From: a bacterium
GTDB lineage: Bacteria; Bacteroidota; Ignavibacteria; SZUA-365
DNA: 64,000 nucleotides
NCBI GenBank assembly: GCA_020444325.1
Contig: JAHLLD010000009.1
Span: 62,001-126,000, forward strand
Direction: 5' to 3'
A model generated the notes under the pieces. It was given only the letters and a program-made list of their open reading frames with translations. It was not told where the DNA came from and made no database searches. Both the position numbers and the translations under genes were made by a program. Shown here in pieces: positions 6,809 through 50,092 of this stretch (positions are counted from its first letter, which is position 1; each line of letters opens with the position of its first letter).

Positions 6809-6824
6809 TGGCACGGTTCATGCT
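6809..6824 (+). promoter_or_regulatory. Sigma-54 (-24/-12) promoter
   Basis: TGGCACG-GTTC-ATGCT matches the sigma-54 consensus TGGCACG-N4-TTGCW with a single mismatch, and GG and GC have the exact 12-nt register. Predicted start of transcription is about 6835. The first 15 bases are identical to the promoter at 39753-39768 on the other strand, so both probably belong to the same regulon. Confidence 0.75.
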
Positions 6825-6897
6825 TAAATATGGGCGAACCGGAAGTTCAGAAGTTTACGAGGAAGACAGGTCTCCGAACCTGGAGGAAGTGCCGCGG

Positions 6898-12267: not shown

Positions 12268-13182
12268 ATGCAGCAGAAGACACATAGCGTCCCGCGCATT
12301 GTACCGACACCTTCACGTAAGGTCGAGTCTGCACATGATGACGAGCATCCCACAACGTCGCACCCCGCAACGTCGCACCTTGACACCGCGCATCCCGACT
12401 ATCCACGGTGGAAGCGTGCTGCCGAGAATGCCGTCCTTCGCGGATCGCTGGTCTGCCGTCTGCTCTCCGAAGCCATCCCACTTCGTGAGGCAAGGGTGCT
12501 GGATGCCGGTTGCGGTGTGGGTGGCACGAGCATTGCTCTTGCCGATGCAGGGGCGGACGTTACGGCAGTTGACAGAAATCCCGCTCGTCTCACCATGCTG
12601 CAGGAGAACCAAAGCCGTATCGAGGCAGAAGCTGGCGACCTGACTTCCCTTCGTTTTGCAGACCGCAGTTTTGATGCCGCGGTGCTGCAGGATGTTATCG
12701 AACATGTTACGGATCCACAGCTTGTGCTTCGCGAAATGGCACGCGTACTGCGTCCCTCCGGCATCCTCTATCTCAGCACGCCGAACAGGAATGCCCTGCC
12801 GAATCTCGTGGCAGACCCCCATTTCGGACTGCCGCTGGTGAGCCGAAAATCGCGTGAAGAATTGCGTCCCATCCTGCGCCGACGTCGTCCCTCGGACGCC
12901 GACCGCGATGATCTTGCACAGCTGCTCAGTGCCGAGCAGCTCAGCGCATTGCTCGGCAACGCCGGATTCAGCTGGCGTTATGTCAATCGCGCCGCCGCGA
13001 AACAACTGTTCACGCATCCCGAAACCGTGGTGTGGAGCGACATGCATCTGCGCATTGTGCGCGCACTGCGGGCGACGGGACTACAGTACCCGCTTCGCGT
13101 CCTGGTGCGTGATACCCCGGGGATATTCAATCGGTGGCTCAACCCCACCTGGTACATTCTTGCGAGAAAGGAAGGCGCATGA
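12268..13182 (+). CDS. Class I SAM-dependent methyltransferase
   Basis: 304 aa. Motif I VLDAGCGVGG (77-86), an acidic residue after the second strand (AVDRN), motif IV LQDVIEHV and the LRPSGILYLSTPN segment mark a UbiE/COQ5-like class I methyltransferase. The C-terminal 110 residues are less typical and may bind the acceptor. The N-terminal 45 residues are low in complexity (HPTTSHPATSHLDT) and come from a 15-nt tandem duplication at 12353-12379. It sits between a GT2 and a radical SAM gene, one base after the former and overlapping the latter by ATGA. Substrate unknown. Confidence 0.9.
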   Translation: MQQKTHSVPRIVPTPSRKVESAHDDEHPTTSHPATSHLDTAHPDYPRWKRAAENAVLRGSLVCRLLSEAIPLREARVLDAGCGVGGTSIALADAGADVTAVDRNPARLTMLQENQSRIEAEAGDLTSLRFADRSFDAAVLQDVIEHVTDPQLVLREMARVLRPSGILYLSTPNRNALPNLVADPHFGLPLVSRKSREELRPILRRRRPSDADRDDLAQLLSAEQLSALLGNAGFSWRYVNRAAAKQLFTHPETVVWSDMHLRIVRALRATGLQYPLRVLVRDTPGIFNRWLNPTWYILARKEGA

Positions 13183-33938: not shown

Positions 33939-35042
33939 CTAGCCAAGGGAAATGTCGATGGATGGAGCACCGGGCGAGGAAAGATTCTTCTGGGAAATCC
34001 CGCCCGCGAGCGTCAACGCTACATCGATGAAACTGTTGGTGACATCGGATTCCGGTTCGAGTTCGACGATGGGGACACCTTCGTCGCCACCCACGCGGAC
34101 CTTCGTGGTGATGGGGATTTCCCCGAGGAAGGGGACGCCGAGTTCGGTTGCGGTGCGTTTACCACCTCCATTGGCGAAAATCTCTTCGCGTTCACCGCAG
34201 TGCGAGCAGATGTAATAGCTCATGTTCTCGACGATACCGAGGATGGGAACGGACACTTTGTCGAACATGCGGAAACCCTTGCGCGCATCGGCCAGTGCAA
34301 TATCCTGCGGCGTCGTGACGATGACCGCGCCTGACAGTGGAAGCGACTGCGAAAGCGTGAGCTGAATATCCCCCGTTCCGGGAGGCATGTCGAACAGCAG
34401 GTAGTCGAGCTCACCCCAATCGACGTCGGTGAGGAACTGCTTGAGCGCGCCGCTGGCCATGGGGCCACGCCAGATAAGTGCGTCTTCCTGATCAATGAGG
34501 AAGCCGATGGACATCAGCTGCACACCGTACGCCTCTGTCGGCAGCAAACGAGTTTTCCCGTTGTCCTTGTACGCACGGGGCTGTGTTTTTGCGTTCATCA
34601 TGAGCGGAATGCTGGGACCGTAGATATCTGCATCGATGAGTCCCACGCGTGCTCCGGATTTTGCCAGGGCGACCGCGAGGTTCACAGCGACAGTCGATTT
34701 TCCAACACCGCCCTTTCCACTTGAAACAGCGATGGTATTTTTCACACCGGGGAGCACGCTGTTTTTCATGGCATCTCCGGAATCCGGGATGGTCACGGTC
34801 GTGTCCATCGTCACCTTCGCTGCTGGGAGAGCCTCTGCGAGGGTTTTTCGTACCTCCTCTTCGAGCCCGGGACGCGCAAAACGGGGCGGGATTTTCATAT
34901 CAAGTGTAAAACGAAGTTCTTCACCGCTGATGGTAAGATCACGAATCATGTCTGCCGCAACGACATCCATGCTCATGTACGGAGCAGTCACCGTGCGCAA
35001 CGCGTCGAGAACGTCCTGCTCATTAAAATTCGCCTGTGCCAT
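33939..35042 (-). CDS. apbC: Mrp/NBP35-type iron-sulfur carrier ATPase
   Basis: 367 aa. N-terminal DUF59/MIP18-like domain (1-85), then the deviant Walker A SSGKGGVGKST (107-117), the DIYGPSIP segment, and CSHCGERE with the CxxC that holds a shared cluster at the dimer interface. Strong AAGGAGA before ATG 35042; a frame to 35102 is disregarded. Together with Nfu downstream it forms an Fe-S assembly pair. Confidence 0.94.
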   Translation of the reverse strand: MAQANFNEQDVLDALRTVTAPYMSMDVVAADMIRDLTISGEELRFTLDMKIPPRFARPGLEEEVRKTLAEALPAAKVTMDTTVTIPDSGDAMKNSVLPGVKNTIAVSSGKGGVGKSTVAVNLAVALAKSGARVGLIDADIYGPSIPLMMNAKTQPRAYKDNGKTRLLPTEAYGVQLMSIGFLIDQEDALIWRGPMASGALKQFLTDVDWGELDYLLFDMPPGTGDIQLTLSQSLPLSGAVIVTTPQDIALADARKGFRMFDKVSVPILGIVENMSYYICSHCGEREEIFANGGGKRTATELGVPFLGEIPITTKVRVGGDEGVPIVELEPESDVTNSFIDVALTLAGGISQKNLSSPGAPSIDISLG

Positions 35043-35149: not shown

Positions 35150-35857
35150 TCAGGATTCGGGAGGGTTTGAGCCGGATTGCTGTGCTTTCCCCAGAGACAG
35201 CAAGTCATCAACGATACGGCCCGCCCTGTGCAGTCCGGTTGAAATCGTCTGCACGCACTGCGCCCTGACATCATCCGCGATACGGGGATCTTCGAGCAGC
35301 TGCGCGGCCGAGACCGCATAGGAGAGCGGATCGCGTAAACGGTGCGCCAAGCCTTCACTGCGTTCGCCAATGCGCGCCATGCTGCGTTCCTGCCGGAGTT
35401 CCTCCTCCAGCAGGCGCTGTTGGGTGATATCCTGTTCCATCACCAGCCAGTGTGCATCGAAGGGGAGTCCGTCACGCCGCAGCCATACGGCATGGACTAC
35501 CCGCAGGTCGCCCTTCGGGAACATGCGCTCGCTGTCACCTTCCCAGCTCACCTGCTCACGGAGCCGCTGCAGCATGGGAATGCGGAAGGCTTCAGGGAAT
35601 ACGGGCAGCGAAAGGAGTTCCTGGTCAATCAGCACCGAAGCTTCGCGCTGACAAAGCGCACACGCTGCAGGATTTATGTACTGCACCGTTCCTTTCATGG
35701 AGAGCAGCAGAATCGCCTGCGGCAGAAGATCGAGCACCGTCGCGGCGGCGTTGGAGCTGTCGAAATAGCTGGTATGTTCAATGTGTGAAGGCATGCAACA
35801 GGACAATGGCAGACGCCGTTTTTCATGCGATGGAAGGATATCAGAGATAGCGCTCAT
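35150..35857 (-). CDS. Truncated histidine kinase: PAS and HisKA only
   Basis: 235 aa. A PAS domain (about 35-145) is followed by a dimerisation helix pair with the H-box EGLAHRLRDPLSY (His172). The kinase HATPase domain is missing: the protein stops after LSLGKAQQ, and none is seen in the other frames before mrp. In the H-box the residue after His is Arg, where active kinases have Glu. The helix pair closely follows that of the 10-PAS kinase at 42673 (EGIAHELRNPLGY). Overlaps the response regulator upstream by 17 nt; an alternative ATG at 35794 would avoid this. It may receive phosphate from another kinase or act as a decoy. Confidence 0.82.
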   Translation of the reverse strand: MSAISDILPSHEKRRLPLSCCMPSHIEHTSYFDSSNAAATVLDLLPQAILLLSMKGTVQYINPAACALCQREASVLIDQELLSLPVFPEAFRIPMLQRLREQVSWEGDSERMFPKGDLRVVHAVWLRRDGLPFDAHWLVMEQDITQQRLLEEELRQERSMARIGERSEGLAHRLRDPLSYAVSAAQLLEDPRIADDVRAQCVQTISTGLHRAGRIVDDLLSLGKAQQSGSNPPES

Positions 35858-37208
35858 CGAGATGATATTCGCTTACCTTTTTCAGCATGGTTTTATAGGT
35901 GATGCCCAGGATACGTGAGGCTCTTGCCTTGTTCCAGTCCGTGCGTTTGAGGATATCGAGTATCATATCCCTCTCGACGCGGGCAACATGTTCCCGGACC
36001 TGATTTCTGAGAGGCGTGCGTTTGACCGTGATCGGCGGCATGTTCAGGGCCGGCATCACATCCCGGAGCGACCGGATCTCGACATGCCTGGCCTCGATAC
36101 TTTCGGCCGCGATGAGCACGGCCCGTCGTATTGTGGCCTTCAGCTGATGCACATTTCCCTGCCATTCTTCCTTGCGCAGCGCGTCGAGGGCCGCCTCCGT
36201 GATTTCAGGTGCAGGTCTGTCGAATTCCCTGGCAGACTCCTCAATGAACTCCTGAGCGAGTACAGGGATATCCACCAGGCGTTCACGCAGAGGTGGCAAA
36301 TGAAGTACGCGTGCTTCGAAAATGGCGAGGAGCTCCGGGACGAGTCCATCATGCACTTCCTCAATAGGCTGTGACGAACTGCAGATCACGGCTGCGCCGA
36401 GCTTCAGCCAGGCACCCGTGGCCGGATGGGCGTATCCATCGCGTTCAATGTCGCGTGCGAGCCGTTCCTGCAGGGATTGCGGCATTTCCAGGATTTCATC
36501 GAAAAACAGTGTCCCATCCCGCAATCGCTCAAATTTCCCTGCACGTGACGGTCCCGTCGCGCGTCCCCCACCATACAACTCCGCCTGCAGCAGGGATTCC
36601 GTCGCTCCGGCACATTCAACGACCAGCATCTCACCCTGACGCTCACTGACCTCGTGCATCAGACGTGCAAGACGGCGTTTTCCGCAACCCAGTTCACCTG
36701 TCAGCAGGCAGGGCTCACCTGCGCGCGCGATGCGCTGCACCGATCGGGCAAGCGCCTGTAGCTCCTCCGCCTGTGAAAGGTCCGCCAGGAGCGGATGCAG
36801 TTCTTCCTCGACCTCTTTCTCGGGAAGCGGCATTCCTGCTGCATAGGCGAGAGCCCTGCGAATCGTTTTCACCATTTCGTCGTTATCGAATGGCTTAGCG
36901 ACATAGTCGAACGCACCGGCCTTGATACCATCGACAGCATCGCGCACACTGGAAAGTGCTGTCATGAGGATGACCGGTAGTGAAGCATCCACCTCATGAA
37001 GGCGTTTGAGCACTTCAAAGCCATCGATCCCCGGCATGCGAATATCGAGTATGACAAGGTCGGGCCGCCTCGAGGCGACCATATCGATGGCCTCCTCCCC
37101 ACGCGTCGCTGTGTGAACAGTAAACCCGTGGACTTTCAGCAGGTGTTTGAGGACGAAGAGAATCAGTTCTTCATCGTCGACGACAAGGATATCGGCGGAA
37201 TCGGTCAT
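35841..37208 (-). CDS. NtrC-like response regulator with degenerate AAA+ domain
   Basis: 455 aa. Receiver domain with an intact acidic pocket (Asp11, Asp12), phospho-acceptor Asp55, and KPF; central AAA+ domain; Fis-type HTH at the C-terminus (DWNKARASRILGITYKTMLK). The AAA+ part is damaged: Walker A is GELGCGKR (171-178), the GAFTGA sigma-54-contacting loop is replaced by GGGRATGPS (213-221), and sensor I reads CSSSQ. Walker B FFDEI is kept. It should be phosphorylated and bind DNA, but is unlikely to activate sigma-54. Its HTH resembles that of the regulator at 47730. Coupled to the truncated kinase downstream. Confidence 0.88.
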   Translation of the reverse strand: MTDSADILVVDDEELILFVLKHLLKVHGFTVHTATRGEEAIDMVASRRPDLVILDIRMPGIDGFEVLKRLHEVDASLPVILMTALSSVRDAVDGIKAGAFDYVAKPFDNDEMVKTIRRALAYAAGMPLPEKEVEEELHPLLADLSQAEELQALARSVQRIARAGEPCLLTGELGCGKRRLARLMHEVSERQGEMLVVECAGATESLLQAELYGGGRATGPSRAGKFERLRDGTLFFDEILEMPQSLQERLARDIERDGYAHPATGAWLKLGAAVICSSSQPIEEVHDGLVPELLAIFEARVLHLPPLRERLVDIPVLAQEFIEESAREFDRPAPEITEAALDALRKEEWQGNVHQLKATIRRAVLIAAESIEARHVEIRSLRDVMPALNMPPITVKRTPLRNQVREHVARVERDMILDILKRTDWNKARASRILGITYKTMLKKVSEYHLDERYL

Positions 37209-37364: not shown

Positions 37365-37694
37365 CTAGCCCACCATTGAGCTGTCTGAGTCCGTATTCAT
37401 CACCAGCGTTCTCTGTTGTACGCCATGCTTCGTGTGCAGGCGGGCGTAGCATCCCCCTGAGGGGAAGGTTTCGCCATAGAGTTTCAACTCGTGATAGCCT
37501 GGCTTCATCATTTTATGATCATAGATCGTATGGATGACCTGGCCGTAGTTGTTGTAGATTTTCAGTGACACTTCCTGCGCTTCCTCCAACGTGAACGTCA
37601 ATGTCGCACTCGGATTCAGCGGGTAGGCGTACTGTGAAAATGAAAAAGGGATTTCCATTGCTGCTTCACTGCTCCGTTCCAGGCTGTTTCGCAT
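37365..37694 (-). CDS. Stand-alone T9SS sorting-domain-like protein (cassette 1)
   Basis: 109 aa. Start at 37694 is fixed by GAGGA about 10 nt upstream and by alignment with its duplicate at 40048, which begins at the same residue. Almost the whole chain (about 17-100) looks like a C-terminal sorting domain: YAYPLNPSATLTFTLEEA, a SLKIYNNYGQVI strand, and GGCYARL where sorting domains have SGVYIAVL, with a distinctive Cys. There is no signal peptide or carrier domain, so it should stay in the cytosol. The copies differ mostly at third codon positions, which implies purifying selection. Possible roles: decoy, chaperone or regulator for sorting; unproven. Confidence 0.8.
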   Translation of the reverse strand: MRNSLERSSEAAMEIPFSFSQYAYPLNPSATLTFTLEEAQEVSLKIYNNYGQVIHTIYDHKMMKPGYHELKLYGETFPSGGCYARLHTKHGVQQRTLVMNTDSDSSMVG

Positions 37695-37717
37695 GAGCTG
37701 TGTTCCTCGAAAAAGTT

Positions 37718-37751
37718 CACTGTGGGCGGAGACGGCGCTCCGCCCACAGTG
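37718..37751 (-). other. Intercistronic hairpin, cassette 1
   Basis: Perfect 14-bp arms CACTGTGGGCGGAG and CTCCGCCCACAGTG around ACGGCG, between the stop of the large gene (37807) and the ribosome site of the 109-aa gene. The same hairpin, shorter and with one mismatch, is found at 40410-40440. No U-run follows, so it likely stabilises RNA or attenuates the second gene. Confidence 0.7.
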
Positions 37752-37806
37752 CTGCATTTGTGCTCTACTCTCTCCACTCTCACGTGTATAGAGCACATAT
37801 ATGATC

Positions 37807-39696
37807 TTACTTGTTGAGGACGAGTTTCTGCTGCTGGACGGTACCGGCTGCTTCGAGGACGGCGATATACACGCCGCTTGGCAAGGCTGATCCTTCAAAT
37901 TCCACCGTGTGGAAGCCGGCATCGAATTCGCCGTCGACCACGGTTGCCACAACCTGACCGAAGGTGTTGTAGACCTTCAGCGATGCGTGGGCAGCTTCCT
38001 GAAGCGAGAAGCTCAGCTTCGTGCTGGGATTAAAGGGATTCGGATACGCTTCGTAAAGCTCGACGCGGTCGGCCTGTGCGCCGGTGAAAGCGTACACGAT
38101 GCCAGAGTAGTCGATCGTACCGTCACGGTCTTCCTGGCGAAGACGATAGGCGATCTGCGGCACCTCCAGGAGTCCACGATCCAGGATATCAGTGTAGTTG
38201 TAATCGAGCGGCACATTCGACGTACCCGCGCCATCAACGAAGCCAATATCTTCCCAGCTCTCGCCATCGAGCGAACGCTCGACGTAGAAGCCGTGATTGT
38301 TCAGCTCAGTCGCGGTCTGCCACTTCAGGTTAACGTTGCCGTCATAGTAACGCGCTGAGAACGAGGTCAACTCGACGGGGGGCACACCAGTGCCCTGACC
38401 AACGGAGAGGTCTCCGTAACCGGGCATGCAGGCTGCATTCGGATTGGTGTAGAGCGACTGAGGTGCCGGTGCATTCACATCAGGGTAAGGCCCGAAATTC
38501 ACGAACCAAGTACTCGCGATCTTGTAGCCATCGAACGATCCACTGATGTCCCAATAGCCACTGGAGGGTGAATCCTCAACATTCGGTCGATAGATTGCCG
38601 AATAAATCCGAGGGTCATTGCTCCGATATTTGCTATGGAAAGCGATCTGGCCCATCAATCCCGGCTCGTATGGGCCATTCGGGATTCCGGCCCCCTTTAC
38701 GGACCAGTAATACCACATTGTTGCGGCGACATTAGCCTCGGGATGCTGTGAATTATGGTTGAACACAGCGCGGACGGAAAGATAGCTGAACGGGAACGCT
38801 GAAGGTGTCGAGATGGGCCATGCCTGGCCCGGGCAGAGTCCAAGCCGGAGAATCGTGATGCCTTCTGTCGTTGACGCTCCTGTCACCGTACCAATCGGGA
38901 AATCCCAGGTACTGCCAACATTTGTGGAGGTAAACTCCTTGCAGACACGGCCCTGCGCAGGTGTGCTGATGTAGTCTCCGTTGACACAATAAAACGCGCC
39001 AGGGTCATTCGAGCCGTTGCTCGGAGATGTCGCAGCACCGATAAGATCCGCATCAATACCCAGGTACAGATTGTTGTATCCCAGCCGTACCGGGACGGCG
39101 GAGATATCGATGTCGCCAAGGAAGCACACAGGACCGGCCATAAAGTTGCCGTTCTGAATGTCTGTGACGACACCGGAACCGATATAGGTCGTGTTGGTCG
39201 TTTCGCATGCGGGCATGGAAAGCGTACCGTGCATCTCAATACCAGCTGTGCCGGTGACATTTGCATCCTCATCAACAAACATTGCACAATGCTGACCCAC
39301 GATCAGTAACCCACCCAAATCGAGGATTTGGAAGGGGGCCGGAGTCAATCCATCGCCTACGGTGATTGCTCCTGTCACGGTCAGATCTCCCCATAACGAG
39401 AGTTTCTGTACCGGCTGGACACCACCGGTGACCTGAAGTTCCGTAATGGTTACACCTGCCGACGGTGTCTGGGGAATGCGCGCAGCGGATGCATCAAGAA
39501 CAGCAATATCCGTGACGTTATTACCCGGCCACTGTCCACCCAGGGAATCGCAGGTCCAGTTGCCGGCATTATCCCATTCGTTATTGACCGTTCCGGTCCA
39601 CGTGAACGTGGCCTGTGCATTCATCTGCATTCCCAGAAAGAGAACTCCCACTATTGTGAGTGCAGAGATACGTGAAATCAGTTTCAAGGTCGACAT
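37807..39696 (-). CDS. T9SS-type surface protein, cassette 1
   Basis: 629 aa. Start at 39696 with GAGGAG. Signal peptide 1-28 (ends MNAQA). Then TFTWTGTVNNEWDNAGNW, an opening seen in many repetitive surface proteins, and a strand-rich, probably beta-helical region to about 450. Next comes a fibronectin-like segment common in this phylum (VELTSFSARYYDGNVNLKWQ, about 465-555), and a final sorting domain (YEAYPNPFNPSTKLSFSL...KLVLNK). It is predicted to be exported and attached to the surface by the type IX pathway. A sigma-54-type promoter lies upstream. No enzymatic motif was found; structural or adhesive role is likely. Confidence 0.88.
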   Translation of the reverse strand: MSTLKLISRISALTIVGVLFLGMQMNAQATFTWTGTVNNEWDNAGNWTCDSLGGQWPGNNVTDIAVLDASAARIPQTPSAGVTITELQVTGGVQPVQKLSLWGDLTVTGAITVGDGLTPAPFQILDLGGLLIVGQHCAMFVDEDANVTGTAGIEMHGTLSMPACETTNTTYIGSGVVTDIQNGNFMAGPVCFLGDIDISAVPVRLGYNNLYLGIDADLIGAATSPSNGSNDPGAFYCVNGDYISTPAQGRVCKEFTSTNVGSTWDFPIGTVTGASTTEGITILRLGLCPGQAWPISTPSAFPFSYLSVRAVFNHNSQHPEANVAATMWYYWSVKGAGIPNGPYEPGLMGQIAFHSKYRSNDPRIYSAIYRPNVEDSPSSGYWDISGSFDGYKIASTWFVNFGPYPDVNAPAPQSLYTNPNAACMPGYGDLSVGQGTGVPPVELTSFSARYYDGNVNLKWQTATELNNHGFYVERSLDGESWEDIGFVDGAGTSNVPLDYNYTDILDRGLLEVPQIAYRLRQEDRDGTIDYSGIVYAFTGAQADRVELYEAYPNPFNPSTKLSFSLQEAAHASLKVYNTFGQVVATVVDGEFDAGFHTVEFEGSALPSGVYIAVLEAAGTVQQQKLVLNK

Positions 39697-39752: not shown

Positions 39753-39768
39753 TGCATGAACCGTGCCA
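39753..39768 (-). promoter_or_regulatory. Sigma-54 (-24/-12) promoter, cassette 1
   Basis: On the minus strand TGGCACG-GTTC-ATGCA matches the consensus TGGCACG-N4-TTGCW with one mismatch and exact spacing. Start of transcription would be about 39742, giving a 46-nt leader to the ATG at 39696. Fifteen bases are identical to the promoter at 6809. Confidence 0.8.
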
Positions 39769-39949
39769 GTATTTGGAGTATTTGTACAATCATTGTCCGT
39801 ATTAAGCCGGCGAGAAACAGGGCTCGGCCTAAACGGCTAATTCTCAATGCCTTAGGTGTTTTTTTTGAAGGGTAATGCTACCGTGATCGGGAAGCAGGGA
39901 GAAAATGGAATGCAGGTGATAAGAATTCTGGGATCGATGTCACGACAAT

Positions 39950-39991
39950 ATGTATACATCGGATTGCATAGGTATGCAATCCATTGCATAC
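39950..39991. promoter_or_regulatory. Palindromic enhancer-like element, cassette 1
   Basis: ATGTATACAT (39950-39959) is followed by a perfect palindrome with 10-bp arms GGATTGCATA and TATGCAATCC around GG (39961-39982), then a third half-site ATTGCATA (39983-39990). The centre lies about 230 nt upstream of the predicted sigma-54 start. A closely similar element stands at the same place in cassette 2. Binding by a nearby NtrC-type regulator is inferred. Confidence 0.7.
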
Positions 39992-40026
39992 AAAAAAAGC
40001 CCGGTCCTCTTTTTTAAGACCGGGCT
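39992..40026 (-). terminator. Rho-independent terminator of cassette 2
   Basis: Arms AGCCCGGTC and GACCGGGCT around an 11-nt A/T-rich loop; seven T follow on the minus strand. It ends the 40048 transcript and abuts the enhancer-like element of cassette 1. Confidence 0.87.
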
Positions 40027-40047: not shown

Positions 40048-40377
40048 CTACCCTGCAGTTGGGTCAGGATGCTCAGTGTGCATGACGAGTGTGCGCTGAA
40101 GGACACCGTGTTTTGTCTGAAGCCGGGCGTAACAGCCTCCAGCAGGGAACGTTTCGCCATACAGTTTGAGTTCGTGATAACCAGGTTTCATCATCTTCTG
40201 ATCGTATATCGTATGGATGACCTGGCCGTAATTATTGTAAATCTTCAGTGAAACTTCCTGGGCTTCTTCCAGGGTGAACGTCAAAGTTGCACTGGGATTC
40301 AGCGGATACGAGTATTGTGCGAATGAGAATGGGATTTCCATGGCTGCTTCACTGCTCCATTCGCCGGGTTCAATCAT
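40048..40377 (-). CDS. Stand-alone T9SS sorting-domain-like protein (cassette 2)
   Basis: 109 aa, the same length as its duplicate at 37365. Start at 40377 has AAGGAAA upstream. The two proteins are alike from SSEAAMEIP (8-16) to about residue 99 with roughly seven substitutions, while their DNA shows many silent changes. YSYPLNPSATLTFTLEEA, SLKIYNNYGQVI and GGCYARL are kept. The short N-terminus and last ten residues are the variable parts. No signal peptide. A single-domain, non-exported copy of a sorting domain is unusual; function unknown. Confidence 0.8.
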   Translation of the reverse strand: MIEPGEWSSEAAMEIPFSFAQYSYPLNPSATLTFTLEEAQEVSLKIYNNYGQVIHTIYDQKMMKPGYHELKLYGETFPAGGCYARLQTKHGVLQRTLVMHTEHPDPTAG

Positions 40378-40409
40378 GAAGTCTGTTTCCTTGGGTCGCG
40401 AAAAAATCT

Positions 40410-40440
40410 GCTGTGGGCGAAGCTGCCCTCCGCCCACAGC
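40410..40440 (-). other. Intercistronic hairpin, cassette 2
   Basis: Arms GCTGTGGGC and GCCCACAGC, extended inward with one mismatch, between the large gene stop (40467) and the ribosome site of the 109-aa gene. It is the counterpart of 37718-37751. Confidence 0.65.
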
Positions 40441-40466
40441 ATGTGAATTGTGCTCTCTCTCCACTC

Positions 40467-42332
40467 TCACTTATTGAGCACAAGTTTCTGTTGTTGCACA
40501 GTACCGGCTGCATCGAGCACTGCGATATACACACCGCTCGGCAGAGTCGATCCTTCAAATTCAACCGTGTGGAAACCAGCTTCAAACTCGCCGTCGACGA
40601 CGGTGGCAACCAGCTGTCCGAACGTATTGTAGACCTGCAGTGTTGCGTGCGAGGACTCCTGCAGCGAGAAGCTCAGCTTCGTGCTGGGATTGAAAGGATT
40701 CGGATACGCTTCGTAAAGCTCGACGCGGTCAGCCTGTGCGCCGGTGAACGCGTACACGATGCCAGAGTAGTCGATTGTACCGTCACGGTCTTCCTGACGA
40801 AGGCGGTATGCAATCTGGGGCAATCCTTTAAGGCTCCGGTCCAGAATATCCGTGTAGTTGTAATCGATAGGTGCATTCGACGTCCCAGCGCCGTCGACAA
40901 AGTCAATATCTTCCCAGCTCTCGCCATCAATCGAACGCTCGACATGGAAGCCGTGGTTGTTCAGCTCGGTCTCCGTCCGCCACTTGAGCTGGACATTCCC
41001 ATCATAGTAACGGGCGCTGAACGAAGTCAGCTCGACCGGGGGAACCCCAGTTCCCTGGCCAACGGAGATGTCTCCATATCCTGGCATACAGCTTGCGCTT
41101 GGGTCGTAGTAGCCCACTTTCTTGTTGGGATCTTCATATGGTCCGAAATTCACGTACCATGTATCCGAAATTTTGTACCCATCGAATGATCCGTTAATAT
41201 CCCAGTAAGCGGGATCAGGCTGATCTTCGACATTCGGCCGGTAAATGGCTGTATATATGCGGGGATCGTTGCTTCGATACTTCGCATGAAATGCCACCTG
41301 TCCCATCAAACCTGGGTCCACAGGCACTCCAGCGCCTTTCACTGACCAATAATACCACATAGTTGCGGCAACATTTGCGGCGGGATGTTGGGAGTTGTGG
41401 TTGAAGACTGCGCGAACTGAGAGATAATTGAAGGGGAACGCAGACGGAGAATCGAATGTCCCATATTCATACGTGCAAATTCCGAGCGTGAGGAGCGTGA
41501 TGCCCTCTGTCGTTGTCGCACTCGTCACTGTTCCAATCGGGAACGTGAAGACTTGATCTGCCTGGGTAAATTCCTTGCAGATCCGTCCTTGAGGCGGGTT
41601 GCTAATGTAGTCGCCATTTTCGCAGTAGATAGCACCAGGAGCGTCTGAACCATTGCCAGCGTCGCTGGCGGCTCCAAGCAAATGCGCATTTACGCCTAGA
41701 TACATATTATTATATCCAAGTCGAACTGGCACTGTAGAAATGTCGATATCGCCAAGGAAGCACACAGGACCGACCATAAAGTTGCCGTTCTGAATGTCTG
41801 TGACGACACCGGAACCGATATACGTCGTGTTGGTCGTTTCGCATGCGGGCATGGAAAGCGTACCGTGCATCTCAATACCAGCTGTGCCGGTGACATTTGC
41901 ATCCTCATCAACAAACATTGCACAATGCTGACCCACGATCAGTAACCCACCCAAATCGAGGATTTGGAAGGGGGCCGGAGTCAATCCATCGCCTACGGTG
42001 ATTGCTCCTGTCACGGTCAGATTTCCCCATAACGTGAGTTTCTGTACCGGCTGGACACCACCGGTGACCTGGAGTTCCGTAATGGTTACACCTGCCGACG
42101 GTGTCTGGGGAGTGCGCCCCACAGATGCGTCAAGAACAGCAATATCCGTGACGTTATTACCCGGCCACTGCCCACCCAGGGAATCGCATTTCCAGTTGCC
42201 GGCATTATCCCATTCGTTATTGGCCGTTCCGGTCCACGTGAACGTAGCCTGCGCATTCATCTGCATTCCAAGAAGGATGACTCCCACAAGAATGAGCGCG
42301 GACATTCGGGAAATCAGTTTCAACGTTGACAT
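40467..42332 (-). CDS. T9SS-type surface protein, cassette 2
   Basis: 621 aa from ATG 42332 with GAGGAGA; a frame to 42461 crosses the promoter and is rejected. Same architecture as the protein at 37807: signal peptide (ends MNAQA), TFTWTGTANNEWDNAGNW, beta-rich body, fibronectin-like segment (VELTSFSARYYDGNVQLKW) and sorting domain (YPNPFNPSTKLSFSLQE...KLVLNK). Residues about 20-190 are nearly identical to the other copy; residues about 200-420 vary in sequence and length. The variable middle with constant ends suggests diversifying exposed parts on a conserved export frame. Confidence 0.88.
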   Translation of the reverse strand: MSTLKLISRMSALILVGVILLGMQMNAQATFTWTGTANNEWDNAGNWKCDSLGGQWPGNNVTDIAVLDASVGRTPQTPSAGVTITELQVTGGVQPVQKLTLWGNLTVTGAITVGDGLTPAPFQILDLGGLLIVGQHCAMFVDEDANVTGTAGIEMHGTLSMPACETTNTTYIGSGVVTDIQNGNFMVGPVCFLGDIDISTVPVRLGYNNMYLGVNAHLLGAASDAGNGSDAPGAIYCENGDYISNPPQGRICKEFTQADQVFTFPIGTVTSATTTEGITLLTLGICTYEYGTFDSPSAFPFNYLSVRAVFNHNSQHPAANVAATMWYYWSVKGAGVPVDPGLMGQVAFHAKYRSNDPRIYTAIYRPNVEDQPDPAYWDINGSFDGYKISDTWYVNFGPYEDPNKKVGYYDPSASCMPGYGDISVGQGTGVPPVELTSFSARYYDGNVQLKWRTETELNNHGFHVERSIDGESWEDIDFVDGAGTSNAPIDYNYTDILDRSLKGLPQIAYRLRQEDRDGTIDYSGIVYAFTGAQADRVELYEAYPNPFNPSTKLSFSLQESSHATLQVYNTFGQLVATVVDGEFEAGFHTVEFEGSTLPSGVYIAVLDAAGTVQQQKLVLNK

Positions 42333-42389: not shown

Positions 42390-42405
42390 TGCACAATCCG
42401 TGCCA
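42390..42405 (-). promoter_or_regulatory. Sigma-54 (-24/-12) promoter, cassette 2
   Basis: On the minus strand TGGCACG-GATT-GTGCA has the exact sigma-54 register, with one mismatch to TGGCACG-N4-TTGCW. Predicted start about 42379, 47 nt before the ATG, matching cassette 1. Confidence 0.78.
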
Positions 42406-42600
42406 AAAAGCTGACGAAGCGGGGTTATTGCCGATTTAGGGTTGGAATTAAAGAAACACATGAAGGGGCGGGGAGGATGAACCCCATATAAATCAAATGT
42501 GATCTACAGCCTGCTTCATGCTGAGGATGAAGTGAAGTGCAGAATTGCTGCATTCGAGATAAGCAGATTAGAAGGACCGTTTATCTGAACTCACAACGAA

Positions 42601-42642
42601 ATGTATACAACGTATTGCATAACTATGCAATTCGTTGAATAG
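42601..42642. promoter_or_regulatory. Palindromic enhancer-like element, cassette 2
   Basis: ATGTATACA, then an inverted repeat (42608-42637) with core arms ATTGCATA and TATGCAAT around AC and outer arms CAACG and CGTTG, then GTTGAATA as a degenerate third half-site. It aligns over 42 positions with 39950-39991; both outer arms differ from cassette 1 yet keep pairing. Centre about 243 nt upstream of the predicted start. Confidence 0.7.
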
Positions 42643-42672
42643 GTGCAGAATATCTGGAACTCAGCGTTCGGG

Positions 42673-45600
42673 TTACTGTGTGGCCGACGTATCTACGGGG
42701 AAGGAAAGCAGGAAGGCCGCTCCTTCGTCGGTGTCGGTATCGAGTTCGATACGTCCGTCGTGGTCTTCCATGATGAAGTAGCAGAGGGTGAGTCCGAGTC
42801 CCACGCCCTTGTCGCCTTTTTCTCCCTTGGCGGTCGTGAAGAATGGATCGAAGATGTGTTCGATGTATTCCGAGGGAATGCCTGGACCGCTGTCGCACAC
42901 GCGAACAAGATTCTTTTCGTCGCTGCGCTCACCTTCCACCTGGATGCGCCCCTGCCCGTTCATGGCGTGGACGGCATTGGTGAAGAGGTTGTAGAATAAC
43001 TGCACAACCATTTCCCTGTTGCCGTTGATCAGCAGCGGTTTGTCGTGGAAGGCGGTCTGTATGGTCACTCCCTTGCCGAGGTCGTGTTCGTGCAGCAGCT
43101 CAACGGCTTCTTCGATGATATCGATGATGTCGACCTGCTTTTTCATCAGCTGTCCCTTCGGCTTGCCGATGAGCAGCAGGTTTTCGACGATCTTGTTCGC
43201 CTTGTCAACCCCGGTGTGAATCGCGGTGCTGAACTTGTCGAGTTCTTCGGGTGTGGGATTCTGCTTTCTCCTCAGCAGCTGCGCAGCAGAACTTGCGTAC
43301 CCGAGGGGATTGCGCAATTCGTGGGCGATTCCCTCGGAGAGTATGCCCAGGGACGCGAGTTTCTGCGATTGCAGCAGTTCGCGCTCGAGTTTCTTGCGCT
43401 CGCTCAGGTCGATGCCGATACCGACATAGCCGGTGACCTTGTTCTCATGGACGATGGCGTTCCAGACCGCGTAAATCGCAAGTGGAGCGCTGTCACGACG
43501 GCGTCGGTCGACCTCGCCCTCCCACTGTCCCCGCTGATGCAATACAGGAAGCAGCTGCTCACGGAATTCCTCGCCAAAGCTGGGGATTTCGCTGAGCTTT
43601 CGGCCCTCGACTTCGGAAGCCGGCCAACCATAGAGAATCTCAGCATACCGGTTCCAGTAGGTGACGCGTCCCGTCAGATCGATGGCAATCACGGAGTTGC
43701 GTACGATGCTCAGCAGGGATGCCTGGAAACGGATGTAATGTTCCGCGTTCTTTCGCGCTGTGACATCATTGAAGAAGTTCAGGGTTGCGGGTTCGCCTTC
43801 CCAGGTGATGAGCACGTCGCGGACTTCCATCCACTTGATGGTGCCGTTGCTGTCGAACATGCGTACGTCGTAACTGTCGGGGAGATGCTGCCCCGCGATA
43901 CGTTTTTCGTACTGCAGCTTGACGGATTGATGGTCTTCGGGATGTACAAACTCCAGAATTGAGATATTCACCAGTTCTCGCTCAGCGAGTCCCGTAAGTT
44001 CAAGTACCTTGTAATTGAAGAATTTCAGCAGGTTGTCCTGCAGCACGATGATGGCTTCGTTTGCGTTCTCGAGGACGTTCCGGTATTTGGACTCACTGTC
44101 CTTAAGCGCCATCTCCACCTGCTTACGCCGCGTGATGTCGCGTGCGGTGGCGACGAGAAGCTGACCACTGACGATTTCGAAGGAACGGACGAATACTTCG
44201 ACAGGGAAGTCGCTGCCGTTCTGCCGCCGATGCCGCGTTTCGAACATGCCGACTTCAGTCTTGCCCTGACGGACGTCCTGATACATCTGCAGGTAGTCTT
44301 CACTCTGTCCGCTCGATTGGATATCGGCAGGACCCATGTTCATGAGGTCTTCGCGTGAATACCCCAGTGCCCGTACGGCACTTTCATTCAGATCCACGAA
44401 TTTCATCGTCTCCGGGTCGACGATGTAAATATTGTCCGCCGCACTGTCGAGCGCAAACCGGAAACGCTTGAGGCGCTCATTGGCGCGCTCCAGTTCGAGC
44501 GTACGTGCTTCGACAAGCTCCTCGAGATGATCGCGGTAACGGCGAAGCTCATGATCAGCGCGAATGCGCCCGGTGATATCGACAGCCACGCCGATGACCT
44601 GTGTGAGTTTTCCGCGATCGTTTTTCAGTGGCGTGTACCAGGTCTCGTAATAGTGTTCGCCAACATTACTGACCTCGGTGAAACTGTCTCCCTCAAGACT
44701 GCGCCGCACTGCGTCGAGCACGGAAGGATTGTCCCCGTAAATATCGAACACCGACTGTCCCACGACCTGGGACGACTCGAGTCCGAGAGACTCCAGCCCT
44801 TTCCCTTCGGAAAGCAGGAAAATCCCATCCGTGTCATAGGTAAACAGGATGACAGGAAGATTTGAGATGACACTGCGGAGCCGCTTTTCACTCTCTATCA
44901 GCGCCAGCTCTGCCATCTTACGCTCGGTGACATCACGTCCCACACCAATAATGGCCGAGACCTCCCCGTTTTCGTCCATCACTGCCGTATCCACCCACGC
45001 GAGCCATCGCCATCCATCCCTCGTCAGGGCACGCTGTTCGATATGTGCGATGTACGGTGGCTCGAACAGCCCCTTCATCGCTTCAAGCGTTGCATTCCGG
45101 TCGTCCTCATGCACGAGCGGGAAGAACGTCTCACCGAGCAGTTCATCTTCCGTCTTTTTGAAGAGTTCGCAATATGAGGGACTCACGAAGTGGAAACGTC
45201 CATCCAGGTCGACCTTGACGACAAGGTCGGTCTGGTTCTCGACGAGAAGCCGGAATTTCTCTTCACTCTCCTTGAGTGCCAGCTGTGCGAGTTTTCGTTT
45301 ATGGATATCGCGCGTATTGCCATGAACGGTAACCACCTTGCCGCTGTGATCGAGCACAGGTGTGGCCACGATTTCAACCCAGAGCAACGAACCGTCATTT
45401 TTCCGGAGCTGTGCTTCGGTGCGCAGGCTTCGCTGCGAGATATCTCCGTCCTTTCCTTCCCGGACCCGCTGCTCCATGAGCGCGATCACATCCTCTCGCT
45501 GAAAATCATGCACCAGCTTTTCAAAACCCAGCTTCATGACCTGGTCCGGGGTATACCCGAGAATGAATTCGCTGGAAGGGCTGACGAAGGTAAGATTCAG

Positions 45601-47673
45601 TTCCGCGTCCGCTGTCCAGATGATATCCGTTGAATTTTCTGCCAGCAGCCGGAACTTCCGCTCACTGTCCTCGAGAGCGACTTCCGCATACTTGCGCTCG
45701 GTGAGATCGAGATAGGTTCCGGAGACGCGCAGGGGACGACCGGAGGAGTCATACTCGACGGTTTTCCCTCGCTCGAGTATCCACTTCCAATCTCCCTTTG
45801 CAGAAATCATCCAGGTCTCCGCCTGGTAGAAATCCGTCACGCCGTCAAGATGGTCGCGAAGCAATTCCTCCAACCGTCCCTGGTCCTCCTCCGGCAGGGT
45901 TTTCTTACGGAACTCCTCGAACACGGGCAGATCGGTTTCGTCGTACCCGAGCATCTCCGCAGCACGGCGGTTAAGCGACATCCTTCCGGTATCGAGTGAA
46001 AACTCCCATGCGCCGAGATTCGCACCCCAGAGCGCGAGGTCGAGCAGTTCGCGGGATCCCCGTACTTCCTTCTCGATTCTACGCCGCTCGGTGATATCTT
46101 CCCCACTGCTGAGAATGCCGACGAGCCTGCCCTTGCTGTTGTGCAGCAGGGCGTTGTGCCAGCGAAGCAAGCGCTCCTCTTTCTCCCTGTTCAGCACAAC
46201 ATTCTCGTGGGTCTCCGGCTGGTCAACTTCCCCATCTACAATTCTGTGGAAATATCGACGGAGCTGTTCCCTGTCGCGCTCGGGAATGCAGAGTTCGAAC
46301 CAGTCCTTCCCCACCAGCTCATGCTCCTGATAGCCCAGCAGCTCACAGCCTTTGCGGTTGATAATGCTGATCCGGCCTTCGAGATCAAGAGAGAGCAGCA
46401 TGACACCGGCGATGTCGAGATACTGCTGCGTCTCCGTACGCACATCGCGCAGCGCATCCTCGGTCCCGCGTTTTTCCGTCACATCGGAAATCACGCCACT
46501 GAGTCCGACCAGGTAATCTGCCTGCATGCGCCGGCGTCCACTGAAGTGGAGGATATACTCGCTGCCGTTTTTTGCATGCACCGGGTATTCGCAATCGGAC
46601 AAGCGACCCTGGAGCATGGACAGCAAACTCTCCGCCCACTCCGCTCTTCTGTCCGGAAGCAGAATATCAGCCACGGGCATGCCTGTGAGTTCATCGGCGC
46701 TGTACCCGATAATGCGTGAAATGCCGGGACTCAGGAAGGTAAAGCGCCCGTTGATATCAATCTCATACAGCGCTTCGTCGATGTTTTCGAGTATGGTCTC
46801 AAAGCGCCGCTGCGTATCCTGCAGACGGTTTTCCGCCCGCTTCCTCCCGCTGATATCTACGATGTATGCCGTGTGTGAAACAGGGACATCATCCCCGGCC
46901 CGCTGCAGACGCGTTGTCTCATGCACCCAGACAGTTTCCTGTTTCTGGTCGAGCATGCGATAGTCGATCTCCAGTACTTCGGTCCCCTCCGCAATCTGTC
47001 GTTCCCATTTTTCCACGACACTGTCACGGTCTTCCGGATGCAACAGGGCCAGCCCCCCCTCTTCGTCCTCCCTGAGTGCGACAGGCTGATAGCCGAGTCG
47101 CACAATATTCCGCGAAACGTAAAGAATGCCGAACGGTGGCTGTGCGAGACGCTGAATGACGATGGTCGGACCCGCGACAAACATATCACGCTCGGCCTGC
47201 AGCTGCTCTCGTGCTACCTGCAGCGCGCTGTTCCGCTCAGCCAGTTCCTCCTGCGTGTGACGCAATTCCGATGTAATGCGCTTGCGTTCGATCGCGTAGC
47301 GGATGCTGCGTGACAGCAGAGGTTCGCGCGCATCGCCCTTGATGATATAATCCTGCGCACCGAGACGCACCGCTTCGACAGCAATGTCTTCGTCAGTATT
47401 GCCACTGAAGATGATGATGGGAATTTCCTGCACCGCGGCGTTCATGCGCCGGAACGTGTCCAGTCCGTCGCTGTCCGGCAGGTTCAGATCGAGCAGGATA
47501 CAATCGGGCTCCCATTCGAGCGCGATCTCTATCCCCGCTTCCAGCGCTTCGGCCGCCCGCAATTCCTGCACACTGCTTGCGTCCTGCCCCAGGATGGTGC
47601 TGATAAACTGTATTTGATCCCGATCATCTTCGATCAGAAGGACAGCATAGCGATCTTGGTCGGATGAGGTCAT
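42673..47673 (-). CDS. Soluble REC / ten-PAS sensor histidine kinase
   Basis: 1666 aa. An N-terminal receiver domain (about 8-125, Asp62) is followed by ten successive PAS/PAC units (about 150-1430), each ending in a D-I/V-T-x-R/K-K-type linker such as DVTERKMAELAL. Then come HisKA with EGIAHELRNPLGY (His at about 1451) and a complete HATPase domain (NLFTNAVHAM, DSGPGIPSEYIEHIFDPF, GVGLGLTL). No transmembrane segment, so it senses internal signals such as redox state, gases or ligands; no heme or flavin motif was identified. It lies 56 nt after the response regulator gene at 47730, the likely partner. Confidence 0.93.
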   Translation of the reverse strand: MTSSDQDRYAVLLIEDDRDQIQFISTILGQDASSVQELRAAEALEAGIEIALEWEPDCILLDLNLPDSDGLDTFRRMNAAVQEIPIIIFSGNTDEDIAVEAVRLGAQDYIIKGDAREPLLSRSIRYAIERKRITSELRHTQEELAERNSALQVAREQLQAERDMFVAGPTIVIQRLAQPPFGILYVSRNIVRLGYQPVALREDEEGGLALLHPEDRDSVVEKWERQIAEGTEVLEIDYRMLDQKQETVWVHETTRLQRAGDDVPVSHTAYIVDISGRKRAENRLQDTQRRFETILENIDEALYEIDINGRFTFLSPGISRIIGYSADELTGMPVADILLPDRRAEWAESLLSMLQGRLSDCEYPVHAKNGSEYILHFSGRRRMQADYLVGLSGVISDVTEKRGTEDALRDVRTETQQYLDIAGVMLLSLDLEGRISIINRKGCELLGYQEHELVGKDWFELCIPERDREQLRRYFHRIVDGEVDQPETHENVVLNREKEERLLRWHNALLHNSKGRLVGILSSGEDITERRRIEKEVRGSRELLDLALWGANLGAWEFSLDTGRMSLNRRAAEMLGYDETDLPVFEEFRKKTLPEEDQGRLEELLRDHLDGVTDFYQAETWMISAKGDWKWILERGKTVEYDSSGRPLRVSGTYLDLTERKYAEVALEDSERKFRLLAENSTDIIWTADAELNLTFVSPSSEFILGYTPDQVMKLGFEKLVHDFQREDVIALMEQRVREGKDGDISQRSLRTEAQLRKNDGSLLWVEIVATPVLDHSGKVVTVHGNTRDIHKRKLAQLALKESEEKFRLLVENQTDLVVKVDLDGRFHFVSPSYCELFKKTEDELLGETFFPLVHEDDRNATLEAMKGLFEPPYIAHIEQRALTRDGWRWLAWVDTAVMDENGEVSAIIGVGRDVTERKMAELALIESEKRLRSVISNLPVILFTYDTDGIFLLSEGKGLESLGLESSQVVGQSVFDIYGDNPSVLDAVRRSLEGDSFTEVSNVGEHYYETWYTPLKNDRGKLTQVIGVAVDITGRIRADHELRRYRDHLEELVEARTLELERANERLKRFRFALDSAADNIYIVDPETMKFVDLNESAVRALGYSREDLMNMGPADIQSSGQSEDYLQMYQDVRQGKTEVGMFETRHRRQNGSDFPVEVFVRSFEIVSGQLLVATARDITRRKQVEMALKDSESKYRNVLENANEAIIVLQDNLLKFFNYKVLELTGLAERELVNISILEFVHPEDHQSVKLQYEKRIAGQHLPDSYDVRMFDSNGTIKWMEVRDVLITWEGEPATLNFFNDVTARKNAEHYIRFQASLLSIVRNSVIAIDLTGRVTYWNRYAEILYGWPASEVEGRKLSEIPSFGEEFREQLLPVLHQRGQWEGEVDRRRRDSAPLAIYAVWNAIVHENKVTGYVGIGIDLSERKKLERELLQSQKLASLGILSEGIAHELRNPLGYASSAAQLLRRKQNPTPEELDKFSTAIHTGVDKANKIVENLLLIGKPKGQLMKKQVDIIDIIEEAVELLHEHDLGKGVTIQTAFHDKPLLINGNREMVVQLFYNLFTNAVHAMNGQGRIQVEGERSDEKNLVRVCDSGPGIPSEYIEHIFDPFFTTAKGEKGDKGVGLGLTLCYFIMEDHDGRIELDTDTDEGAAFLLSFPVDTSATQ

Positions 47674-47729: not shown

Positions 47730-49142
47730 TCAGCCGTTCGGATTCTGCAAATCGTATTCGTTGATTTTCGACAGCAGCGTGTTGTACGCAACCTGCAGGA
47801 CACGTGCGGTCTTCGCTTTGTTCCAGTTCGTGGTGTTCAGGGTTTCCAGAATGATCTGGCGTTCGACCTGGGCGATGTGCTTTTTGACATGGTCCTTCAG
47901 TGCCGCGCCCTCTTCGAGCCGCGGTATGGGAGCACTGCCCGGGTTTGGAGTGCCTGGGACGGTTCCATCCATGAATTCGAGGTGTTCGAGTTCCACGACC
48001 TCCGATGCCTGCAGCACGCTCGAGCGAACAGTGGAGCGGAGCTGACGCACATTACCCGGCCACTCGAACATGATAAGAGCATCCATTGCAGCTGCCGAGC
48101 ATCCCTTCACCTGCTTACCGAGTTCCTTGTTCGTCTGTTCGATGAACTTATCAACCAGGAACGGGATGTCACCTTTCCTCTCACGCAGCGCAGGGACATG
48201 GATGGAAAATTCCTTCAACCGGTAGTAGAGGTCCGCGCGGAAATCTTTCTTTTCAATCAGCGATTGCAACTCCGTATTGCTTGCTGCGATGACACGGACA
48301 TCGATACTGATGGACGTTCCCCCGCCGACACGGAAAATGGCACGATCCTGCAGCGCACGCAGCAGCTTGGCCTGCGAAGCCCAGGACATATTTGGCACCT
48401 CATCGAGAAATATCGTCCCACCCTGCGCGAGTTCGAATTTTCCTTTTTTCTGATTCTTCGCGTCGGTAAACGCCCCCTCTTCGTGACCGAAAAGCTCACT
48501 TTCGAGCAGAGCCTCGGGGATTGCACCACAGTCGACAGGAATGAACGGCTTGTCAGCTCTCCCGCTCATGCTATGGATGGCGCGTGCAATAAGCTCTTTT
48601 CCCGTTCCTGTTTCTCCCGTAATCAGCACGTCGAAATTGCTCTTCGCCACTTTCCTTGTGCGCGCGGCAAGTTCTGTGATGACCTCACTGGTCCCCATGT
48701 CATGCAGAATGGGATCCTGCTGGGAATCACCACCTCCATTGTTCTGTACGTTGAAAAGGTCAGTGCGCGGCTTGTTCCGCTTTACCGCCTCCCCGACGAC
48801 GCGGAGAAGTTCATCATTGTGAAAAGGCTTGGCGATGTAGTCGAAGGCGCCATCACGCATAGCGTCTACAGCGCCCGTGACACCGGCCATGGCGGTCATG
48901 AGAATGACGGGGAAGGTATCGTCTATCGTTTTTACACGACGAAGGACCTCCATCCCTGTCAGTCCGGGCATGATGATATCCATGAGCAACACGTCCGGGA
49001 GGCGGTCACTTATCAGTTTCAGCGCCTGCTCGCCATTGGAGGCCGTTCGTACCGCGTAGCCCGCGTCCTCGAACACGCCCCCCAGCACCAGGCACATCAT
49101 TTCTTCATCGTCGACGATCAGTATTTCGTCCTTTGGAGGCAT
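47730..49142 (-). CDS. NtrC-family sigma-54-dependent response regulator
   Basis: 470 aa. Receiver (1-120; phospho-acceptor Asp55, KPF at 106-108), AAA+ domain with Walker A GETGTGKE (176-183), loop GAFTDA (223-228) in place of GAFTGA, Walker B IFLDEV, sensor I AASN, and a Fis-type HTH (NWNKAKTARVLQVAYNTLLSKINEY). All ATPase elements are intact. The G-to-D change in the loop is unusual. Strong GAGGG at the start. Together with the 10-PAS kinase it is the best candidate to activate the sigma-54-type promoters of the neighbouring cassettes. Confidence 0.94.
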   Translation of the reverse strand: MPPKDEILIVDDEEMMCLVLGGVFEDAGYAVRTASNGEQALKLISDRLPDVLLMDIIMPGLTGMEVLRRVKTIDDTFPVILMTAMAGVTGAVDAMRDGAFDYIAKPFHNDELLRVVGEAVKRNKPRTDLFNVQNNGGGDSQQDPILHDMGTSEVITELAARTRKVAKSNFDVLITGETGTGKELIARAIHSMSGRADKPFIPVDCGAIPEALLESELFGHEEGAFTDAKNQKKGKFELAQGGTIFLDEVPNMSWASQAKLLRALQDRAIFRVGGGTSISIDVRVIAASNTELQSLIEKKDFRADLYYRLKEFSIHVPALRERKGDIPFLVDKFIEQTNKELGKQVKGCSAAAMDALIMFEWPGNVRQLRSTVRSSVLQASEVVELEHLEFMDGTVPGTPNPGSAPIPRLEEGAALKDHVKKHIAQVERQIILETLNTTNWNKAKTARVLQVAYNTLLSKINEYDLQNPNG

Positions 49143-49297: not shown

Positions 49298-50092
49298 ATG
49301 CGTTTAAACCGCTCAACCGTGCTCATTACCGGTGCGTCCGAAGGCATCGGACGCGCAACGGCGAAGCTCTTTGCCACAAGGGGCTGCCATGTGATCGCCG
49401 CCGCGCGAACCGGCACGAGACTTGAGAGTCTCGCCGAGGAGATTCATGCGGAAGGAACCGGCAGCTGCGAACCCCTGCTTATTGACGTTTCCGACGCGGA
49501 AGGTACGGTAGACAAACTTGGCAGCATCGCGGAGGAGAAGGATATCTCCATCGCAATTATCAACGCCGGGGTGGGCCAATACGGACCTTTCGCACAGACA
49601 CCATGGAGCGACGTCGCTCCACTGCTTCGTGTAAACATCGATGGTGCCATGGCTGCAACACGTGCAGTCATTCCCTCAATGATCGCGAAGCGCAGGGGAA
49701 GCGTCGTCCTTATCTCCTCCACCATCGGAAAACGTGCAGTGCCGTATAATGCCGCGTACTGTGCGTCCAAATACGCGTTACAGGGATTCAGTGAAGCGCT
49801 TCGGCTCGAACTTCGTCCCTTCGGCGTACACCTTGGCGTTGTGTGTCCGGCCCGCACGGATACGGCCTTTTTCAACAGCATGACCTTCTCTGTGCCGCAA
49901 CGCAGCAGCCGGAAGGTGCCCACGAGCGATCCCCTGCGCGTCGCCCGCGCCATTCTGCGCTGTGTCGAACGCCGGAGGAGGGAAATCGTGGTCAGTCCTG
50001 AAGGAAAGCTCTACACGTTCGTTGGCACGCATTTCCCGCGCCTGACCGACGCCATTCTGTATCACAGTGTCCCACGTCCCACAGAACCATGA
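49298..50092 (+). CDS. Short-chain dehydrogenase/reductase
   Basis: 264 aa, classical SDR. Cofactor motif TGASEGIG (11-18), NAG in INAGVGQYGPF, the catalytic Ser in VLISSTIGK and YCASK (about 152-156). The RxR-like residues after the second strand (AARTGTRL) favour NADP(H). Family members reduce or oxidise varied alcohols and ketones; substrate unknown. No ribosome site is seen; the transcript start predicted from TTGACA/TTTATT leaves a leader of about 70 nt. Overlaps the HAD gene by ATGA. Confidence 0.92.
   Translation: MRLNRSTVLITGASEGIGRATAKLFATRGCHVIAAARTGTRLESLAEEIHAEGTGSCEPLLIDVSDAEGTVDKLGSIAEEKDISIAIINAGVGQYGPFAQTPWSDVAPLLRVNIDGAMAATRAVIPSMIAKRRGSVVLISSTIGKRAVPYNAAYCASKYALQGFSEALRLELRPFGVHLGVVCPARTDTAFFNSMTFSVPQRSSRKVPTSDPLRVARAILRCVERRRREIVVSPEGKLYTFVGTHFPRLTDAILYHSVPRPTEP

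Follow-up and report, generated by a model that had tools for sequence, protein, structure and literature searches.

An ATPase-dead NtrC-type response regulator is conserved beside sigma-54-linked T9SS cassettes and may modulate them as a non-activating sister of the intact regulator

An NtrC-type response regulator that has lost its sigma-54 contact and ATPase motifs, here called degRR, is encoded in the same island as its intact paralog, intRR, and beside cassettes of T9SS-tail proteins. The losses are shared by its orthologs in one bacterial family. We analyzed a window of 64,000 nucleotides (contig JAHLLD010000009.1, positions 62,001 to 126,000), and the features discussed are listed in Table 1. 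From their arrangement we tentatively propose that degRR modulates the T9SS cassettes in the island where it lies, as a non-activating, phosphorylation-controlled DNA-binding sister of intRR.

Table 1. Features of the island, with positions in the window
Feature	Position	Strand	Basis and details
mrp/ApbC-type gene, fixed right-hand island border	33939..35042	-	Pfam, relatives
Kinase stub, PAS + HisKA	35150..35857	-	Pfam; full-length orthologs compared
degRR, response regulator, 455 aa	35841..37208	-	Pfam; alignment with orthologs and intact paralogs
Cassette 2 small stand-alone CTD-like gene	37365..37952	-	Comparison with relatives
Cassette 2 T9SS-tail protein	37807..39696	-	Por_Secre_tail (Pfam)
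Sigma-54 -24/-12 element TGGCACGGTTCATGCA, before cassette 2	39753..39768	-	Sequence
Predicted UAS, cassette 2	39948..40009	-	Dyads 39991-39972 GTATGCAATGGATTGCATAC, 39971-39952 CTATGCAATCCGATGTATAC
Cassette 1 small stand-alone CTD-like gene, conserved core 40051-40341	40048..40470	-	Comparison with relatives
Cassette 1 T9SS-tail protein, start MSTLKL at 42332	40467..42332	-	Por_Secre_tail (Pfam)
Sigma-54 -24/-12 element TGGCACGGATTGTGCA, before cassette 1	42390..42405	-	Sequence; orthologous sites in relatives
Predicted UAS, cassette 1	42599..42660	-	Dyads 42642-42623 CTATTCAACGAATTGCATAG, 42622-42603 TTATGCAATACGTTGTATAC
intRR kinase: receiver, ~8 PAS, HisKA (HELRNP), HATPase	42673..47673	-	Pfam, alignment
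intRR, intact NtrC-type regulator, GAFTDA loop, all ATPase motifs	47730..49142	-	Pfam, alignment
SDR gene, fixed left-hand island border	49298..50092	+	Relatives

The original prediction described a regulator with an intact receiver and HTH that lacks GAFTGA and sensor I and has an altered Walker A, and Pfam and the alignment bore out each of these points. Response_reg was matched over its full length (7e-34), with the key residues D55 and K105 present, and the additional matches to AAA_lid and HTH_8 (a Fis-type HTH) complete the order receiver, AAA+ and Fis-type HTH of NtrC-type bEBPs. The Sigma54_activat match was weak, with 82 bits over profile positions 4-147 of 168 versus 226 bits for intRR. 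The alignment located the defects. Walker A reads GELGCGKR versus GETGTGKE, with GK retained; the GAFTGA loop is missing, with YGGGRATGP in its place; sensor I reads CSSSQ versus AASNT (Asn to Ser); both Arg fingers (RxDLYYR) are absent; and sensor II reads WQGNVHQL versus WPGNVRQL (Arg to His). Loss of the L1 loop together with an intact receiver and HTH is the combination that defines GAFTGA-less NtrC proteins, and degRR shows it in the alignment. The two paralogs are 37% identical, with the same domain order and the same HTH subfamily. Judged by these motifs, the AAA+ domain of degRR cannot be that of an ordinary sigma-54 activator, in agreement with the predicted non-activating character. 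A single-sequence AlphaFold2 model of degRR (pLDDT 42.8) was set aside.

The ortholog search covered 80 related genomes, in which degRR orthologs scored 390-450 bits at 45-62% identity, a clear step above the other NtrC-type proteins (at most 317 bits). Orthologs were present in G001, G002, G006, G008, G009 and G010, and contig-end fragments in G003 and G004; with the window's genome (G000), nine genomes of one family carry degRR. In the alignment, which comprised the six orthologs and eight intact paralogs, with the G003 and G004 orthologs partial, the GAFTGA loop was missing from the window's degRR and from all six orthologs covering that stretch. The sensor I Asn and the Arg fingers were gone in every ortholog covering the AAA+ domain, and the Arg fingers likewise from the two fragments. 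Sensor II was His in 9/9 sequences, GK was retained in 7/7 sequences covering Walker A, and Walker B was mostly retained. In a midpoint-rooted tree with long branches, the degRR group formed a single clade on a long stem (support 100/100), and degRR, intRR and a third paralog grouped in a subfamily separate from the genome's other regulators (100/99). Mean identity among degRR orthologs was 71% in the receiver, 65% in the HTH and 42% in the AAA+ domain, the last compared with 86% among intRR orthologs. The dN/dS of the dead AAA+ domain was 0.05 (G006/G009) and 0.19 (G000/G002), rough values with dS near saturation, which indicates that the domain is still under purifying selection. Taken together, the shared losses, the single clade and the purifying selection indicate that the defects are ancestral, stemming from one early loss before the family diversified, and that the protein has been maintained since. 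Random decay was rejected as the cause of the degRR defects, since the same losses recur in 9/9 genomes as far as these are covered. The close relatives returned by a database-wide scan were intact activators (GAFTGA, GAFTSA or GAFTDA), so that this family is the only one in which we saw complete degeneracy.

The other regulator of the island had been described as intact, which holds for its ATPase motifs, but its loop reads GAFTDA rather than GAFTGA, as it does in 8/8 sequences of the intRR ortholog group. The large kinase preceding the cassettes carries its receiver at the N terminus, and its DHp is paralogous to that of the small kinase. The window's genome encodes one RpoN; the sigma-54 activator domain is strongly matched at 13 loci, to which the degenerate degRR and a few weak matches add. 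The third paralog (G000:C2:464449-465979; locus L126 9450-10979) reads GAFPEA, is without the sensor I Asn and the sensor II Arg, and possibly represents a half-way stage of the degRR-type loss. It adjoins conserved TGTTGAAN4TCAACA dyads and, in several genomes, also a divergent sigma-54 site beside a transporter gene. This motif, defined on the same sequences, had 17 matches in nine genomes versus 0.06 in block-shuffled sequence, and from its position the third paralog appears to use it. The third paralog also bears on the recognition helix, which had been taken to tie degRR to intRR. The likeness is real, but the third paralog, elsewhere in the genome, has it too (DYKTMQTKVKEY); the other NtrC-type loci read in the window's genome have clearly different HTHs. 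The likeness is thus a subfamily trait that denotes no special link between degRR and intRR, and for this reason we rejected it as evidence for common sites.

The island consists of intRR with its 8-PAS kinase, the T9SS-tail cassettes, and degRR with its kinase, inserted in this order between the SDR gene and mrp. The complete block lies between these borders in the window and in G009, and in G010 the order was followed from the SDR gene up to a contig end within the degRR/kinase pair. In the island-less genomes G005, G007, G013 and G014, mrp and the SDR gene directly adjoin and are divergent. The halves of the island are ~480 kb apart in G008, each with its own cassettes beside it. In 7/7 assembled loci, G008 included, degRR stands behind the small CTD-like gene of a cassette. 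This position and the island itself tie the pair genetically to the sigma-54 cassettes. A terminator-like hairpin separates degRR from the small gene of cassette 2, and the degRR promoter that follows it has a conserved TATATT-like element; an inverted repeat at this promoter (TTGGCAGG..CCTGCCAA, roughly 37250-37220) was dropped because it is not conserved in relatives. The small genes, one after each cassette, resemble a T9SS/FlgD-type C-terminal domain and show 59-93% identity between species, a higher conservation than that of the large T9SS-tail proteins; their close orthologs (at least 59% identity) are confined to island-bearing genomes.

Both cassettes have a sigma-54 element and, 237 bp (cassette 1) and 223 bp (cassette 2) upstream of it, a predicted enhancer (UAS). 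The UAS often opens with a leading half-site, followed by two abutting 20-bp dyads, the first being CTATkCAAt..ATTGcATAG and the second less symmetric. We made a profile from 11 aligned copies from seven genomes; in the 4.65-Mb window genome it matched only the two cassette sites at E <0.1 (about 2e-11), and the palindrome core TTGCATANNTATGCAA occurs there exactly twice. Outside the training set, the profile also matched the expected contig end in G006 (3e-9), a third G008 cassette (5e-10) and three sites in another T9SS-tail cluster of G009, and it had no match in the island-less genomes G005, G007, G013 and G014. In eight genomes, T9SS-tail cassettes are marked by a UAS of 56-62 bp ahead of sigma-54 promoters. 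The UAS and the sigma-54 site were the only conserved elements that we found there; when we looked for another one that might be private to degRR, nothing rose above shuffled sequence. A literature search on sigma-54 control of type IX cargo found no report. Away from the island, G009 has a locus (L166, G009:C132:22000-37000) with five tandem T9SS-tail genes, sigma-54 sites and three more enhancer copies. Elsewhere in the window, a sigma-54 -24/-12 element very like the cassette promoters (TGGCACGGTTCATGCT, 6809-6824, plus strand) lies just before an ORF at 6830; a second full match, at 12522, falls within an ORF.

The sigma-54 promoters and the UAS fit degRR as a regulator of these cassettes. 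Conservation indicates that degRR, an ancient paralog of the neighboring sigma-54 activator, gave up contact with sigma-54 and the ATPase cycle in a single event and was kept, probably as a phosphorylation-controlled DNA-binding protein. In the role that we propose, its receiver-driven dimers would bind the cassette UAS, or one of the two non-equivalent dyads, beside or instead of intRR, and degRR bound there would lower or gate sigma-54 activation because it would be unable to remodel the polymerase. Since the UAS is the only conserved cassette element besides the sigma-54 site, degRR, if it acts at the cassettes, probably does so through the UAS. In favor of this role, degRR stands behind a cassette even in G008, where the active pair is ~480 kb off, both strong UAS copies in the window's genome are at cassettes, and the island-less genomes G005 and G007 lack the UAS. 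Against a shared UAS count the recognition helices, which are fixed differently in the two groups (AYNTLL[ST]KI versus TYKT[MLI]LKK[VI]; A/T, N/K, and S or T/K), and the helix of the third paralog, DYKTMQTKV, which shares YKTM with degRR and yet apparently serves a different dyad. In addition, a sequence search found no UAS copy at degRR's own promoter. Both regulators are present in all UAS-bearing genomes, so that presence or absence cannot separate degRR from intRR, and degRR may sit by the cassettes simply because the inserted block was passed on as a whole.

The main rival reading arises because the known GAFTGA-less NtrC proteins, namely R. capsulatus and Caulobacter NtrC, HupR and VpsR, act with sigma-70 (PMC10274813, PMC3162934). 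On that model degRR would be a sigma-70-type activator or repressor of other promoters and the cassettes mere neighbors, which we regard as a serious possibility, if a somewhat doubtful one. It is the mode of every well-studied GAFTGA-less relative (PMC10274813, PMC3162934), the recognition helix of degRR is fixed differently from that of the active paralog, and Walker A is kept as in R. capsulatus NtrC, for which ATP binding matters and hydrolysis does not (PMC10274813). However, the strict position behind a cassette (7/7 assembled loci) does not suit mere neighbors, and no candidate target motif for degRR was found, its own promoter included. The Rhodobacter capsulatus and Caulobacter proteins share with degRR the receiver, an AAA+ domain with a deleted L1/GAFTGA loop, the Fis-type HTH and the phosphoacceptor Asp. 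Unlike them, degRR also lacks the Arg fingers and both sensors while Walker A stays, and its island, in which it lies next to sigma-54 T9SS cassettes, encodes an intact sigma-54 paralog as well. HupR, VpsR, TyrR, DhaR and YplP likewise once were sigma-54 activators, and their GAFTGA element is broken (PMC3162934). This break is common to them and degRR, whereas genes and targets differ; NtrC-type sigma-54 activators such as intRR, in contrast, have the sigma-54 contact and ATPase machinery that degRR is missing. For none of HupR, VpsR, TyrR, DhaR and YplP do we know an active sister that lies at the same locus and shares the enhancer. The GAFTGA-less NtrC proteins known so far are individual cases, most of them sigma-70 regulators that stand alone.

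The gene of the partner kinase overlaps that of degRR by 17 bp. As predicted, HATPase_c was not found in it by Pfam or alignment, and its H-box reads AHRLRDP versus AHELRNP in the large paralogous kinase, with His kept and Glu and Asn lost. The relatives do have HATPase_c: a complete PAS-HisKA-HATPase kinase with HELRNP follows degRR in G001, G003, G004, G006, G008, G009 and G010, and the closest relative, G002, has an intact HATPase end directly before mrp, as does G011 at a contig end. HRLRD is private to the window species, and HELRN is found in every relative with the H-box covered. The HATPase domain was lost through an in-frame internal deletion, and the stop codon and following bases (CTGAACCCAT) agree with G002; the in-frame join and the conserved flank argue against an assembly error as the source of the truncation. 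Among the species sampled, these alignments place both the truncation and the H-R change in one species, and we accept ordinary lineage-specific loss by random decay for the kinase. The comparison of orthologs thus upheld the original prediction as to the defects of the regulator (losses kept in 9/9 genomes, within coverage), but the kinase defects are confined to the window species and not part of an antagonist design, every covered relative having a complete kinase.

An improbable rival reading puts both genes of the window species in decay, without function there since the kinase lost its catalytic domain. Besides the truncation and H-box change found in this species only, the DHp of the stub is 61-67% identical to its orthologs versus 76-91% among the others, the fastest-evolving DHp of the group; pairwise comparisons that include G000 degRR lie under the group mean for the receiver, the AAA+ domain and the lid; and a P to Q change in WPGN is unique to G000 degRR. 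Nevertheless, both genes have open frames, all key receiver and HTH residues are kept, and dN/dS in the AAA+ domain against the closest relative is still 0.19 (dS near saturation). Very improbable is a working stub that passes phosphate on or, as in the original prediction, drains it, acting either as a histidine phosphotransferase like Spo0B or in a dimer with the large kinase: the in-frame deletion left, as in Spo0B-type phosphotransferases, dimerization/phosphoacceptor helices and His without a catalytic domain, and the DHp domains of both kinases are paralogous (55-64% identity in relatives), but unlike those phosphotransferases the stub derives from an ordinary kinase by deletion in one species only, its fast-evolving DHp is the least similar to the large kinase (43%), and the H-box Glu and Asn are both gone.

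In most species, the phosphorylation of degRR would be set by the dedicated full-length PAS kinase. In the window species, where that kinase has lost its catalytic domain, degRR is probably unphosphorylated, or is fed by the large paralogous kinase or by small-molecule phosphodonors. We consider rather unlikely, although worth stating, the more specific version in which the ATPase-dead sister shares the UAS of intRR as a built-in brake whose own kinase sets the balance; the window species would then have a brake without a private kinase, either fixed in one state or under the command of the large kinase.

What is new here is the retention of an ATPase-dead form across one family, in an inserted island that also encodes the intact sigma-54 sister, and next to T9SS cargo cassettes with a well-defined enhancer. 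The degRR island makes it testable whether a dead enhancer-binding protein can act as a built-in antagonist of a live one, and the window species, with its broken kinase, provides a natural partial knock-out.
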